Under the pieces are notes generated by a model that was not told the DNA's origin, did not search any database, and saw only the letters and a program-made list of their open reading frames with translations. A DNA stretch of 40,124 nt from Gloeobacterales cyanobacterium ES-bin-313 (GTDB lineage: Bacteria > Cyanobacteriota > Cyanobacteriia > Gloeobacterales > Gloeobacteraceae): positions 1-40,124 of the forward strand of contig JACMLN010000187.1 of the NCBI GenBank assembly GCA_014379585.1. Reading direction: 5' to 3'. The translations under genes were made by a program, and so were the position numbers. Shown one piece after another: positions 1,919 through 34,051 of the stretch. Numbering within the stretch: the stretch's first letter is position 1; every line of letters begins with the position of its first letter.

Positions 1919-3180
1919 GCCTTCACGGTGACTTGGGCGAGAAGATTTCCCATCCAGGTAGAAATTAAAAAGCCACCACCGAATACACCGAGGGCAGGGG
2001 CACTAAACCATAGTCCTTGCTCCCCCAGTGCCAATCCGAGGGTTCCAAGCAACCCACAGACGACGAGTACCGCAGTCAAACTGGCCATGACCGTGCGTGG
2101 CCAGCCGGGGTCGCAGCGAAAAATAGCCGAGAGGGGCAACACGCTCAAGAGCAAAGCGATCGCTGCCATGGAGAAATAAATACTGTTACCTACTACTCCG
2201 ATTGCCCCACAGAGAGTTGCAGTGAGCACCATGCCGCCAAACCAATTGCTTGCCGTGGTTTCTTCCTCCGAGAGGGCAAGACGGCCAAAGCGATCGAGCC
2301 GCAACAAGAGATTCGAAAGGGGAGTCGCGATCCACGAAAAGATCGCAAAGCAAACGTATAGACCGAAGGCAATCCAAAACAGGGGCTCAAGACTTGGAAC
2401 TGCGTCCGAGAGTTTGACGAGCACACCTAAGCTGAGAAAAAGTCCAAGAAAAAAGACGACTCGCAATACGGGCTTGAGCTTATTGCTCCACAGAGCATAG
2501 GCCAGAAACAAGCGATAAAAAAGATTCCGGGCTTTCATGGCTTCCACGATCCCGCGACGTGCCCACTCCAAACTTGGATCAAGGCGTAGAGCTTCTCGAA
2601 AAGATTCAAGGGCGGGTTCGATCTTGCCTAACTCTAAAAATAGCCAGCCTTGATTGGCATGGGTGAGGGCATGATCCGGGTCGCGGCGCAGGGCTTCTTC
2701 GATGGCAATCGAGGCTTGATCGGTTCGCCCTAACTTCACAAGTGCCATCACCCAGACGTTAGTACAGCCTAAATGTTCAGGGTTCACAGATAGTCCCTGT
2801 TCGGCAGCCCGTAATGCTTCTGGCCAACGATCCAGAGAAAAATAAGCACTGGAGAGTAATGAGAAATAGTCCGGCTCGCCGGGATCAAGGCGAAGTGCTT
2901 CTTGAAGGGGACTCAGTGCTTCAGCAAAGCGATTGCGCTGATAAAGAATATTGGCGAGGGCATAGTGGGCAAATGGCAGAGTTGGATCGAGGGCAAGGGC
3001 TGCTTCGACCATGGCAGTTGCTTTTTGGTATGCATTGCGTTGAGAGAGACAGAGGCCCAAGAGGGATGTTGCCACGGCATCATTTGGTGCTTCACTGAGT
3101 TCTTGAACTAACTCCTGTTCGGCAAGATCAAACCGAGATTGACGAAAGAGAATTAAAGCGCGGTCAAAATGGTTTCCCAT
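1915..3180 (-). CDS. TPR-repeat membrane protein
   Basis: A 421-aa protein. Residues 1 to about 200 are TPR repeats (for example FDLAEQELVQELSEAPNDA, FAHYALANILYQRNRFAEAL, ALTHANQGWLFLELGKIEPA). The C-terminal half has five or six membrane segments starting near residue 225. The ATG at 3180 was chosen because its A is also the last base of the upstream TGA (TGATG), which indicates coupling to the AAA ATPase gene. A longer frame would begin inside that gene. A role as a membrane anchor or scaffold for the neighbouring ATPase is inferred from gene order only. No enzymatic motif was seen. Confidence 0.75.
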   Translation of the reverse strand: MGNHFDRALILFRQSRFDLAEQELVQELSEAPNDAVATSLLGLCLSQRNAYQKATAMVEAALALDPTLPFAHYALANILYQRNRFAEALSPLQEALRLDPGEPDYFSLLSSAYFSLDRWPEALRAAEQGLSVNPEHLGCTNVWVMALVKLGRTDQASIAIEEALRRDPDHALTHANQGWLFLELGKIEPALESFREALRLDPSLEWARRGIVEAMKARNLFYRLFLAYALWSNKLKPVLRVVFFLGLFLSLGVLVKLSDAVPSLEPLFWIAFGLYVCFAIFSWIATPLSNLLLRLDRFGRLALSEEETTASNWFGGMVLTATLCGAIGVVGNSIYFSMAAIALLLSVLPLSAIFRCDPGWPRTVMASLTAVLVVCGLLGTLGLALGEQGLWFSAPALGVFGGGFLISTWMGNLLAQVTVKA

Positions 3181-19704: not shown

Positions 19705-22458
19705 CTATTGCCAGTTGCCAATCAGAATGAATGGTGCCCAGTAAAATGGGTCGCTGTAGTTTCCAGCCGTTTTCGAAGTCTGGGCATTACGGGTAGGAAC
19801 AACTCCGAGTCCACCACGTTGATCTTCAAATTGACCCGTCGAGGCACTGTGGATCATGGCGATCTGGGCTTGACGCAATGCCTCTGCTTTGGGCATTCCG
19901 GCTTTCAAATTGGCATAGAGATGATCCATGAGTTGTGCGGTACTGCTGTCACTTACACTCCAAAGGCTACCCAACACACTATTTGCCCCGGAACGCTCTG
20001 CCACACCTGCCAGTCCCAAGCCCGCTTTTTCATCCCCGGATGCGGTTTGGCAAGCACTGAGCGTTAAAAGATCGAGACTGCGAAGGTCGAGATCCTTGAG
20101 ATCATCCAGAGTCAATTTCTTGTCCCAAAGCAAGATAAAAGTGTCTTCTTTGCGGCCTGAAAAGTTGGCATGGGTAGCAAGATGTACAAAAGTTGGATGT
20201 TCTTGGAGGGCATCTCGCAAATTGGCGGTGGTGAAATTTTCATCCAGATAGGCTTCAGAACGAAATAGGCTACCAAGTCCTTCTACCTCGCTTTTCACCC
20301 CCGGCAATGCGTTGAGGCCAGAGCGGGTTTTCGTTAAGCCCATGGCCAAAAGTTGGGAAGATGGATGCGATTTTGCAGGCTTCACTTGGCTGAGGTTCGT
20401 GATGGTTCCGAGGGGATAGCGCTCAACAAGAAACTGTTTGCCATCGTAGAGAGCGCCAACAGGAATGAGACGAAGAACACCGTCAGGAGCATAGACTACA
20501 GTATCGATGGTTTTGGCTTTGATCAGGGCTTCGATCTCCGATTCTACTGGAGCAAAAAACCATTGGTACATCTGTTGGAGATCTGCTTTTGTCTGCGTGC
20601 CTGGGGATTGAAGTTTGACACTTAAAGCAAGCGACAAACGTTCAAGATCTACTTTCTTAACAAAAACGGTTCGGTGCAGAGGTTTGGCATTCGGTGTCAA
20701 CAAAATCAGTTCCAGACGATCTGCCAGAATCAACGGGTAAATCACTGCCGCCTTTGTATCGGTTAAAGTTTTACTCATCCGATCAATATTGGTGGAGAGA
20801 TCGGTATCGGTTGCAGTGAGATTTGTCTGCTTATAAAGGGCTGTGGCGCGGGGCAGGAAAACCTCTTGGAAAGCTTTGGTGAGCGTGTCGATGCGGGCGT
20901 AGAGTTTGTCCGACGCTTCGCGGAGTTGTTGATATTCAGGGTTGTTGCTGTTGCGTTGGGAGATTGAGATACGCTTAATTTTCGCTGCAAGTTCGCCCTG
21001 CTGAGTATAGAGGGCGAGTTCTTGACCCTGGATTTTTTGATAGTCTTCCCAAAGCTTTTGTTCGTCAGGATTGAGTTTCAAGTCTCCAGGTGGAGTCGTT
21101 AACGCCGAACGCAGGTATTCTGTCAGTTCTTCATCTTTAAGCAACTCCAACACTTTTTGGGCTTCACCAACACGCCCTTGTTTTAGCAACAAGTCGGCCA
21201 AATCACGGTACACGTCCGATTTGCTCTCAGCAAAACTCTTTTTAAAAGCTGCATTCAATCCCTTGATCTTCTGACGAGTGGCCTGCAAAGTATTAACAGC
21301 TTGTTTGTAGAAAAGCACAGCAAGTACGGGTTGATTTTTGGCAAGCAACACACGGGCAATGCCCTGTTGAGGCTGGTAGGTTTCTTGAGGACTCCCCAAA
21401 GCATCTAGTAACGCTATCGATTTTTGATAGCGCGTCAGCGCCTTGTCGTACTGTTTGAGATGTTCGTAATTTCTGGCGAGGCGAAAATAAATATGCCCTT
21501 CCGCATCTTTGTCGCCTAACTCACTCGTAATTTCGATGCCTCTTTTATTGAATTGAATCGCCTTTTGATAATCACCTACAGCATCATAGCTATCCCCTAA
21601 GCTACCGCAGACCCTGCCCTCCATGACTTTATCGCCGGTTTTTTTTGCTAGCTCGAAACTTTTTAATTGCAGTTCAATCGCTTTTGGATAATCTTTCAGT
21701 TCAAAGTAAACAACCCCTAAGTTGTTGTAGGCAGAGCTAGTGAGCAGTTCTTTCCATGACCCAGAGGCGAGCTGAATTGCTTGGGTGTAGATCTGAATTG
21801 CCTGCGGATAATCGCCAAGGCTGTCGTAGATGATTCCCATGTTGATGTAGAGACTAGCAATTACCTGATCATCTTTCAAATTTTCTTGGGCAATTTTGAG
21901 TGCTTTCTCGTAGTAGCCCAACGCTTCAGAATAGTCTCCACGATATTGAAATGAGCTTCCAAGACTATCGTAGGCACTTTCTTCGAGCCGTTTATCCCCT
22001 ATTTTCAAGGCTATTTGCAGAGCTTTTTCGGCAGCGTGAATCGACTGATTATGATTGGATTGGGTGGAATAGATGCCGCTCAATCCTAGATAGGCTTTGC
22101 CTTCCATCCCCGAATTTTTGATTTCTTCAGCAAATTTCAAGGCGTTTTCGTAGTATGCAATCGCTTTCGGGAAATCGCCCATATTCCCAGCAATAATACC
22201 GAGATTATTATACAAGATCTGTTGATTGGCCTTGTCCCCAAGCTTTTTGTAGAGTGTGAGTGCCTGCTCCCACCTCATGATCGCTGTTTTATAGTCATAT
22301 TTTTCGGTGGCTTTTACCCCTTGGGAGAATGCCGAATCGGCCTGACTTTCTAAGGAAACTGTCGGTTTTGCATAAACAACAGTCTCTTGAAAAGAACTAG
22401 AAATACATCCCAAAATCAAGCCAGAGATCAACAAACGCGAAAGCAAACAGCGACCCAT
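19705..22458 (-). CDS. TPR-CHAT domain protein, predicted exported lipoprotein
   Basis: 917 aa. The N-terminus is hydrophobic and ends in ILGC, a possible lipobox (Cys18). Residues 35-430 hold about nine TPR units (YDKALTRYQKSIALLDALG and similar). A helical region follows. The C-terminal third is a CHAT caspase-like domain with catalytic His763 (ATHANFSG) and Cys803 (LSACQTASGD), then GANSVLGSLWSVSD. CHAT proteases are caspase/separase-like. In cyanobacteria TPR-CHAT proteins are frequent but mostly uncharacterised. GAGGA lies 4 bases upstream of the ATG. Confidence 0.9.
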   Translation of the reverse strand: MGRCLLSRLLISGLILGCISSSFQETVVYAKPTVSLESQADSAFSQGVKATEKYDYKTAIMRWEQALTLYKKLGDKANQQILYNNLGIIAGNMGDFPKAIAYYENALKFAEEIKNSGMEGKAYLGLSGIYSTQSNHNQSIHAAEKALQIALKIGDKRLEESAYDSLGSSFQYRGDYSEALGYYEKALKIAQENLKDDQVIASLYINMGIIYDSLGDYPQAIQIYTQAIQLASGSWKELLTSSAYNNLGVVYFELKDYPKAIELQLKSFELAKKTGDKVMEGRVCGSLGDSYDAVGDYQKAIQFNKRGIEITSELGDKDAEGHIYFRLARNYEHLKQYDKALTRYQKSIALLDALGSPQETYQPQQGIARVLLAKNQPVLAVLFYKQAVNTLQATRQKIKGLNAAFKKSFAESKSDVYRDLADLLLKQGRVGEAQKVLELLKDEELTEYLRSALTTPPGDLKLNPDEQKLWEDYQKIQGQELALYTQQGELAAKIKRISISQRNSNNPEYQQLREASDKLYARIDTLTKAFQEVFLPRATALYKQTNLTATDTDLSTNIDRMSKTLTDTKAAVIYPLILADRLELILLTPNAKPLHRTVFVKKVDLERLSLALSVKLQSPGTQTKADLQQMYQWFFAPVESEIEALIKAKTIDTVVYAPDGVLRLIPVGALYDGKQFLVERYPLGTITNLSQVKPAKSHPSSQLLAMGLTKTRSGLNALPGVKSEVEGLGSLFRSEAYLDENFTTANLRDALQEHPTFVHLATHANFSGRKEDTFILLWDKKLTLDDLKDLDLRSLDLLTLSACQTASGDEKAGLGLAGVAERSGANSVLGSLWSVSDSSTAQLMDHLYANLKAGMPKAEALRQAQIAMIHSASTGQFEDQRGGLGVVPTRNAQTSKTAGNYSDPFYWAPFILIGNWQ

Positions 22459-31512: not shown

Positions 31513-31965
31513 ATGAACTTTTGTACGGAGGCTGAATATCAAGAGTTCATGCATTCCTGCCCTGAATTTGAACGGATGTTAGTGCGCTCAGGAATTATTG
31601 TCCTTAAATACTGGTTTTCAGTCAGCGATGAAGAGCAAGAACGCTGGTTCCAAGGTCGCATCAAAGACCCGATCAAGCGCTGGAAACTCAGTCCGATGGA
31701 TTTAGAATCGAGAGATCGTTGGGTGGAATATTCTCACGCAAAAGATCAAATACTTGCACACACAAATATTCCAGAAGCTCCCTGGTTTACAGTCGAAGCC
31801 GATAATAAAATGCGCGCTCGATTGAATTGCATCCATCATCTTTTGAGCAAAATTCCTTACGAGGACATGACCCCTGATCCTTTAGCGTTGCCACCGAGAA
31901 AGCCTGCTGGTGACTACATCCGTCCCCCTAAAAATGAGCAATTCTTTGTCCCAGAAAGATATTGA
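31513..31965 (+). pseudogene. ppk2: C-terminal half of polyphosphate kinase 2 (5'-truncated)
   Basis: 150 residues matching the second half of PPK2: CPEFERMLVRSGIIVLKYWF, SVSDEEQERWFQGRI, KRWKLSPMDLESRDRWVEYS, APWFTVEADNKMRARLNCI. The Walker A (GxxxxGKG) and Walker B (DRSWYNR) halves are absent. Similarity continues four to five codons upstream of the ATG (VEQI, compare the family GVERV) and then breaks, with an in-frame TAG at 31480. So the 5' half was lost rather than the gene being short by design. The lid-region Arg residues remain, but phosphate transfer is unlikely. Divergent from uvrB. Confidence 0.75.
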
Positions 31966-32073: not shown

Positions 32074-32589
32074 CTAGGACATTTCCCGCTTTAACCAAGC
32101 ACAGGCGAGCGTCCAGTGGCGTTTGACGGTGGCTGGACTGATCTCTAGTGCTTCAGCTGTCGCCTCAATGGTCATCTCACCAAAAATGCGCATCTCCAAA
32201 AGGCGGCTCTTGAGTGGGTCTACTTCAGCAAGTTTGGTTAAGGCGGCATCGAGAGCGAGTAGTTCATCGTCAGTTTCGATGTTTGAGTTCGCGATATCCT
32301 CGATGCTGTCGAGGGGAAGAAGAACCGTTCTACCGCCGCGCTTTTGGGCATTTTCTTTGCGGGCGTGGTCGATCAAGATGTGACGCATACAAGTGGCAAC
32401 TACTGCGACGAAGTGGGTATGATCGCGCCACTCATGAGAGTAAGCTGGATTCAGTAACTTGAGGAGTGCTTCGTTCAGCAGCGCTGAAGTCTCAAAAAGG
32501 TGGTTACGGTTCTGGCCTGCTAAGTAATGGCGAGCCAAACGGGTGAGTTCCTCGTAAGTCTGAGGAAGGAACTTCAAGACCACGGGCAT
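32074..32589 (-). CDS. ECF-type RNA polymerase sigma factor (kinase-associated type)
   Basis: 171 aa. Region 2 spans YEELTRLARHYLAG to HFVAVVATCMRHILIDHARKE (residues 12-80), with the AQKRGGRTVLLPL connector typical of the ECF subfamily frequent in Planctomycetes and Acidobacteria. Region 4 helix-turn-helix: MTIEATAEALEISPATVKRH (139-158). In that subfamily the sigma gene commonly sits beside a Ser/Thr kinase gene. ATG 32589 has AAAGG 5 bases upstream; upstream in-frame residues do not match. No anti-sigma factor was recognised. Confidence 0.88.
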   Translation of the reverse strand: MPVVLKFLPQTYEELTRLARHYLAGQNRNHLFETSALLNEALLKLLNPAYSHEWRDHTHFVAVVATCMRHILIDHARKENAQKRGGRTVLLPLDSIEDIANSNIETDDELLALDAALTKLAEVDPLKSRLLEMRIFGEMTIEATAEALEISPATVKRHWTLACAWLKREMS

Positions 32590-32967
32590 TTTTACCTTTC
32601 TGTGTACGCGAAGGGGCTTGATCACAGGGGAGAACGTCATGGAAGAATTCCGCAAGTTGCCCGTCACTATACGCAAACACGTTATTGGTTTCAAGAGGTT
32701 GTTACACAGGAATACAGGCGGTTTCCAAACACTCCCAGGGATTTTTGTGAGCTTCACTACGGAATTATCGGACAGTGAGCCAATTTGCTCCGTTTTTGCG
32801 TTTACTCAGGCAGAAGGAGTTGCCCGGTCTCCCAGAAAAATTTCAGAAAAACTTTACAATGTTTGCCCACGCCCCTTTGCTACTTATCCTTCTTTCTCCC
32901 TGCTCCGCTCAGGGAGGTTTTGGTGGCAGCAATCGGCGAATTGGTTTCTCCCTCAGTAAGTTTCGGT
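32590..32967. promoter_or_regulatory. Divergent regulatory region between the sigma gene and the 84-aa gene (378 bases)
   Basis: No convincing gene. It carries the direct-repeat element TTTTGCGTTTACTC at 32794-32807 and a TAAGTTTCGG box at 32957-32966 next to the 84-aa start. Read on the minus strand there is a looser TTTGCGTATAGTGACGG about 85-105 bases before the sigma gene. A plus-strand frame of 107 codons from 32638 looks non-coding. Confidence 0.45.
32777..32820 (+). repeat. Upstream element, copy A (84-aa gene)
   Basis: The core TTTTGCGTTTACTC (32794-32807) and a downstream GGAGT match copy B at 33317-33360 in the same register, with GTGAGC at the 5' side. About 22 of the last 27 bases are identical. 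It lies 147 bases before the ATG. Confidence 0.5.
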
Positions 32968-33222
32968 ATGGATCCTAGACGCTGGAAACGCATTGAGGAA
33001 CTATTCCACCTAGCCGCTGAACTCCCGGTTGTGGAGCGCACTGCGTTTGTTGTCGCAGCTTGCGATGAAGACGAATCTCTGGCTCAAGAGGTGATCTCCC
33101 TGCTTGCATTTCATCATGAAGAAGATCAAGAAACCTTGCTTATGGAGATGAGATCTCTGGTGCAAGAGCGTCGTATGCGTATGCAGGCTGAACGCGATGC
33201 CGAAACAGAGAATAGCGACTGA
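32968..33222 (+). CDS. Orphan N-terminal leader domain of ECF-linked Ser/Thr kinases
   Basis: 84 aa: MDPRRWKRIEELFHLAAELP, then ERTAFVVAACDEDESLAQEVISLLAFH. Ser/Thr kinases next to this ECF subfamily characteristically start with this helical module (M-x-P-x-R-W-x-x-I-E-x-L-F, ending E-V-x-S-L-L). Here it stands alone, with an acidic/Gln-rich tail and no kinase domain. A cytoplasmic partner of the divergent sigma factor is inferred. The ATG is supported by the conserved opening. The ribosome site is weak. Confidence 0.7.
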   Translation: MDPRRWKRIEELFHLAAELPVVERTAFVVAACDEDESLAQEVISLLAFHHEEDQETLLMEMRSLVQERRMRMQAERDAETENSD

Positions 33223-33403: not shown

Positions 33404-34051
33404 ATGAAATTCCACAGCTTAACGGCATCTTCGTGTTCGCCCTTTAAGAACGCTCGGATGTTGTTTGCAGCGGGGATCGTAGCAGGTTGCATGACCTTTA
33501 CCCCCGCCCTCCTTGCCCAAGAAAAACCACCCGCAGCACCCACTTTGCCGCCCCTGCCTGCAACGCTGAAACTCAGCACCACGCAGAAAACAAAGATCAC
33601 CGAACTGCTCACTGCTGATCACACCAAAAATCAGGAAGTGTTCAAGCAGCTCAGTGATGCCAACATGGCCACTCGCGACAAAGTGGATGCCGTGCTGACA
33701 CCTGAACAGCGTGCTGCCATCGCCAAACAGCGCACCAAGCTGGACAAGACTGGCAAGCGTGGTGCACCGGCCACCGTCACCCTGGACAAAGCACCTGTTA
33801 CTGCTTCACTGCCCAAGCTCCCCGATGAAGTAAAACTCACCGATGAGCAAAAGACGCAGATCCAAGCTCTACTTGATGCTGAGAAAGAAAAGACCCTCGC
33901 TCTGGTCAAACAGATCAATGACTACCAGGAAGCAACGCGCAAGCAGGTTGCTTCGATCTTGACGCCTGAACAGCGCGCCGAGTTGGACAAACAGCGCAAC
34001 AAGACCAAGACCCGTGGCGAACGTGTCGTCATCGGTGGCGGTCCTTTCTAG
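33404..34051 (+). CDS. Secreted protein with two Spy/LTxxQ-like units
   Basis: 215 aa. A long signal peptide (about residues 1-38, ending LLAQE) precedes a Pro-rich linker and two related helical units: LSTTQKTKITELLTADH to LTPEQRAAIAKQR, and LTDEQKTQIQALLDAEK to LTPEQRAELDKQR. Each unit has the LTxxQ pair of the CpxP/Spy chaperone family. The two units are clearly a duplication. Role inferred: periplasmic chaperone or envelope-stress sensor. GGAG lies 8 bases before the ATG. Confidence 0.75.
   Translation: MKFHSLTASSCSPFKNARMLFAAGIVAGCMTFTPALLAQEKPPAAPTLPPLPATLKLSTTQKTKITELLTADHTKNQEVFKQLSDANMATRDKVDAVLTPEQRAAIAKQRTKLDKTGKRGAPATVTLDKAPVTASLPKLPDEVKLTDEQKTQIQALLDAEKEKTLALVKQINDYQEATRKQVASILTPEQRAELDKQRNKTKTRGERVVIGGGPF

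Follow-up and report, generated by a model that had tools for sequence, protein, structure and literature searches.

Can the N-terminal module of a sigma-linked kinase act on a sigma factor when the kinase itself is missing? The question is raised by a divergent gene pair in one contig (the window, 40,124 nucleotides, analysed in full) of the 4.26-Mb draft genome of the Gloeobacterales cyanobacterium ES-bin-313, in which an ECF sigma factor gene lies next to a gene for an 84-aa protein (Table 1). ECF43-type sigma/kinase systems are already known; what is new here is the kinase-less form, with the leader, as the opening module of such kinases is called below, encoded as a separate protein. A natural leader without a kinase beside its sigma factor uncouples recognition from catalysis, so that the way in which such kinases recognise their sigma substrates can be tested directly. 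In Xanthomonas citri, the kinase PknS (PDB 9EED chain A) activates the ECF43 sigma factor EcfK and phosphorylates it both at T51 of sigma2.2 and within the linker (PMC13147305). The phosphorylated Thr of the ECF43 Q-x-T-A motif stands in for the negative charge of the canonical DAED motif (PMC8999054, PMC13147305). The first 81 residues of PknS gave no electron density and are predicted to form 3–4 antiparallel helices on a flexible linker (PMC13147305), so that the crystallised kinase lacks density for exactly the leader module. Most sigma-linked kinases in the present survey begin with the leader, yet neither Pfam nor NCBIfam holds a model for it. The literature searched yielded no dedicated description of the leader, nor any of how kinases such as PknS or PknT recognise their sigma substrates.

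Table 1. Features of the sigma–leader locus and of other genes discussed from the window (positions are those of the window).
Feature	Position	Strand	Remarks
ECF sigma factor, TIGR02999/PF07638	32074..32589	−	171 aa from ATG 32589; profile matches
In-frame upstream extension of the sigma ORF	32590..32757	−	Codon usage non-coding; probably 5′ region
Divergent intergenic region between sigma and leader starts	32590..32967	none	
Stand-alone kinase-leader protein, 84 aa	32968..33222	+	ATG 32968 to stop 33222; residues 1–55 are the leader
C-terminal tail of the 84-aa protein	33136..33222	+	Not similar to kinases; predicted single long charged helix
PPK2 fragment	31513..31965	+	Between uvrB and sigma; profile positions 108–226 of 229
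LTXXQ/Spy-like periplasmic protein	33404..34051	+	Two repeats; directly 3′ of the leader gene
TPR protein	2407..3150	−	
TPR protein	21505..22338	−	

The initial annotation had taken the sigma factor to be of the kind found next to Ser/Thr kinases, and the profile matches bear this out (TIGR02999, 161.9 bits by hmmscan against a cut-off of 126.15; PF07638, 1.8e-40); the label ECF43-type rests on this match, ECF43 and TIGR02999 being taken as equivalent. Its best start is ATG 32589, with a good ribosome-binding sequence (AGAAAGGTAAAA) 5′ of it. The listed open reading frame reaches 32757, with a coding signal in the 171 codons from ATG 32589 and none in the extension, so the protein is probably 171 aa long and lacks the usual LLxxWxxGD first helix of sigma2. 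A promoter-like TTGAAA-17-TATAGT sequence (32694–32666) inside the extension is at chance level. The sigma2.2 motif reads E-T-S-A, against Q-[APTS]-T-A in relatives, and does not match the ECF43-type motif Q-x-T-A, which has a phosphorylatable Thr and no acid at position 1; the residue at the phospho-site is Ser rather than Thr. Across the 111 sigma factors compared, Q occupies position 1 in 93 and T occupies position 3 in 102, while an acid at position 1 was found only in the window sigma and in that of locus L175, which keeps its kinase. The window sigma ranks among the most divergent of the set, and its 10 departures at positions conserved in at least 85% of sequences are the fourth highest count. 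The E-T-S-A motif, the lost helix and these departures are compatible with rewiring once the kinase was lost, and equally with decay. An acid at motif position 1 was considered as a general sign of kinase loss and rejected: L175 has both acid and kinase, and the kinase-free sigma factors of Balneolaceae do not differ from the kinase-bearing ones. A single-sequence search of genome contigs with the window sigma found no close relative, while an alignment query did find relatives. A survey of 388 genomes from the host's class found a close TIGR02999 sigma (E 1e-20) in the host's own order only, which suggests that the gene was either gained from another group or lost in the remaining orders.

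The 84-aa protein is the leader of sigma-linked Hanks kinases without the kinase, and the likeness is far beyond chance. A profile search against kinase N-termini, in which the profile was built only from leaders of Gloeobacterales sigma-adjacent kinases and the 84-aa protein was left out, gave 66 bits (E 1e-19) over residues 1–53, and the closest kinase, that of the L051 operon (G005:C3), shares 54% identity over 54 aa (BLAST). The likeness to kinases ends at about residue 55 and the last ~29 residues match no kinase, so the module of ~80 residues proposed in the initial annotation stands as a leader match but was put slightly too long. Hallmark leader residues are retained, and codon usage fits the window genes better than that of 99% of synonymous random versions. 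The best PDB match of the leader profile is PknS itself (9EED chain A, residues 6–52, E 2.8e-7), and the AF2 model of the 84-aa protein (mean pLDDT 87; helices at 3–17, 21–32, 36–49 and 51–82) has the fold of 3–4 helices predicted for the PknS N-terminus. A Foldseek search with this model returned no significant match, and its other structural matches (VIA Z up to 6.2; rmsd 5.1, 79 aligned) are unrelated helical proteins; no anti-sigma factor was found among the helical-bundle fold matches, an absence that proves nothing.

The adjacent Hanks-type kinase gene expected for an ECF43-type sigma is absent; of such a kinase the locus encodes just the leader. A search of every frame between 31900 and 34000 detected neither a kinase domain nor a remnant of one, in a span that includes the downstream region where a frameshifted kinase would have undercut the idea of a leader standing alone. 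Two TPR proteins elsewhere in the window (Table 1) show low-identity matches to the TPR sensor regions of sigma-linked kinases; these TPR–TPR matches were the only candidate kinase pieces and were rejected as the missing part. The host genome encodes one other TIGR02999 sigma, on contig C115, which is divergent to a complete leader–kinase–TPR protein. The L051 sigma–kinase operon, from the same family, is closest to the window in both sigma (49% identity) and leader, but differs in its co-directional order of sigma and then a leader–kinase–TPR protein of ~864 aa. Since the window shares no synteny with this or the other closest sigma–kinase loci, orthology has to be read from similarity. No close relative of the window pair usable for a direct selection test was found.

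In kinases, the leader is closely tied to sigma factors of this kind. Nearly every kinase adjoining a TIGR02999-type sigma begins with it, across 80 loci drawn from Acidobacteriota, Planctomycetota, Verrucomicrobiota, Balneolaceae and Proteobacteria. Two complete related genomes (G003 and G004) encode 28 kinase proteins: all eight with the leader have a TIGR02999 sigma as neighbour, and the remaining 20 have neither leader nor such a sigma. This split has a chance probability of 3e-7, though common descent of the leader kinases could also produce it. In other phyla the tie, though strong, has exceptions: several leader kinases with no sigma within 1.5 kb occur in Acidobacteriota and others (L201, L205, L209, L213, L220, L226). 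Leader distances correlate with sigma distances more than kinase-domain distances do (r 0.47 against 0.21 over 77 pairs; partial correlation given the kinase 0.45, p 0.0005). Within one kinase subfamily, however, the leader loses this lead over the kinase domain, which shows that the excess correlation comes from kinase subfamilies mixed under one leader family, and the mirror-tree comparison was dropped as proof of leader–sigma contact. What the distances do show is that leader and sigma remain together even as the kinase domains change, which does not imply physical contact; the same leader heads kinases of different subfamilies beside the same sigma family.

Several damaged or rearranged leader kinases were also observed. 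Two Gloeobacter-like genomes each carry a truncated one, comprising the leader and the start of the N-lobe with no further kinase found: G004:C1:605585, a 192-aa frame (L232, 5334–5909, minus strand), and G005:C2:88498, a 235-aa frame (L054, 2687–3391, plus strand). At L117 (5531–6211, plus strand), the first 20 residues of the leader are fused to TPRs with the kinase domain deleted and the adjoining sigma intact. The leader kinase of G005:C41 (L055, 1543–3126, minus strand) has a frameshift near 1690, and its remainder lies in another frame.

Stand-alone leaders also occur outside the window. About a dozen leaders encoded by short open frames turned up in 58 genomes of Balneolaceae, the family to which Fodinibius halophilus belongs. 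Kinase-free sigma–leader pairs were found at L230 (in the genome of Fodinibius halophilus), L237 and L244 (the same as the Balneola locus L176), the last two at the same pckA locus, flanked in both cases by a peptidylarginine-deiminase-like gene and pckA. The L237 and L244 sigma factors, from two species, are 68% identical and their leaders only 34%, which points to weaker constraint on the leader there. Six genomes hold orphan leaders of ~60 aa (L231, L238, L239, L240, L242, L243), whose conserved neighbourhoods overlap and include a TonB-dependent receptor and a gamma-glutamyltranspeptidase. These six are under purifying selection: pN/pS is 0.33–0.49 in 14 of 15 pairs and 0.80 in the remaining pair, most synonymous sites being close to saturation, and each frame would have a 2–4% chance of staying open if randomised. 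At L236 and L242, a free leader shares one strand run with a sigma and a leader kinase; L236 (G655:C13, 1144–5412, minus strand) encodes a sigma, a free 100-aa leader and a leader kinase, so that free and kinase-bound leaders are adjacent. By comparison, 48 leaders in 25 Acidobacteriota genomes included no leader frame shorter than 160 aa. The Balneolaceae genes resemble the window in having the leader alone, at L230, L237 and L244 directly beside a TIGR02999-type sigma, but are co-directional, with proteins that stop soon after the leader (58–86 aa), and their paired sigma factors carry S-[KR]-T-[ED] motifs and retain the N-terminal helix region. Together, the pairs and the conserved orphans indicate a module able to live alone, and the leader as a separable unit in nature, as the initial annotation had suggested, is well supported.

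The window pair may be viewed as an ECF43-type sigma/kinase unit in which the catalytic and sensor regions would have disappeared and the leader survived as a helical 84-aa protein of its own. It is like the EcfK/PknS (Xanthomonas citri) and EcfP/PknT (Vibrio parahaemolyticus) systems in its leader, homologous to PknS residues 6–52, in its sigma of the TIGR02999 kind found beside such kinases and in a sigma2.2 motif without the canonical DAED. It differs from both in having no kinase domain, membrane segment or TPR sensor, in a leader that is a separate divergent gene, in an ETSA motif in place of QTTA/QATE and in the absence of helix 1. The most likely role of the leader in the parent systems is to dock the kinase on the cognate sigma, which would let the kinase phosphorylate the Thr of the sigma2.2 Q-x-T-A motif. 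Once freed, the leader would most likely bind the same sigma without phosphorylating it and serve as a small soluble regulator, either an anti-sigma factor or an adaptor, and the E at motif position 1, where canonical ECF sigma factors have the D of DAED, could free the window sigma from phosphorylation. The homology, the kinase loss, the leader–sigma association and the conserved stand-alone leaders elsewhere were observed directly; sigma binding, the direction of its effect and independence from phosphorylation are what we infer. Small soluble anti-sigma factors (NepR, ASD-type) are likewise short, helical and ECF-sigma-adjacent, an analogy in manner of working only; we know of no sequence similarity between them and the 84-aa protein.

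That the window leader acts on the window sigma is the most likely single reading of the locus, at slightly below an even chance. A strong but lesser contender is that the kinase of a sigma–kinase pair was deleted and that leader and sigma, now functionless, remain open by chance or recency. The window sigma's missing LLxxWxxGD helix and many departures from conserved positions are what such decay would produce, and the neighbouring PPK2 gene, which appears truncated to its C-terminal half, favours a decaying neighbourhood; in addition, truncated leader kinases are known in the family (G004:C1:605585, G005:C2:88498), and L117 joins a leader start to TPRs with no kinase between. Yet both open reading frames are intact with coding-like codon usage, the hallmark leader residues have been kept, and leader and sigma are equally diverged from L051, with low pN/pS (0.41 and 0.43) at near-saturated synonymous sites; moreover, two Balneolaceae species have kept comparable kinase-free pairs at one shared locus. 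The leader as such probably has a job of its own, although in the window genome it may be a leftover; a function for the window pair is likely.

Much less probable is an adaptor role in trans, whereby the free leader would bring another Hanks kinase, such as that of C115, to the window sigma or compete with that kinase's leader. The host genome does offer partners, with 22 kinase-domain matches at E 1e-10 or better, one of which has its own leader and its own TIGR02999 sigma. A Ser still occupies the phospho-site of the window sigma, and the L236 and L242 operons combine a stand-alone leader with a sigma and a leader kinase; the tail of the 84-aa protein, however, is unlike any kinase region. 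A very improbable reading is that the leader serves as a module for kinase regulation or dimerisation without touching the sigma, its proximity reflecting common descent of one kinase lineage. The several leader kinases without a neighbouring sigma would fit such a module, as would the finding that the distances of leader and kinase in one kinase subfamily agree as well with the sigma as with each other, but the leader persists kinase-free beside sigma factors at four loci in two phyla (the window, L230, L237, L244), and one leader type is found on kinases of different subfamilies beside the same sigma family. With direct action of the leader on its sigma as the preferred reading, a wider generalisation, that kinase leaders have repeatedly been freed as phosphorylation-independent sigma-binding regulators, here with a Q-to-E charge replacing the phosphate, is offered only tentatively and is rather unlikely to hold in full; if true, kinase N-termini would have given rise to a small and new class of regulators that bind sigma factors. 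The LTXXQ/Spy-like protein encoded next to the leader gene is a possible stress-response neighbour.
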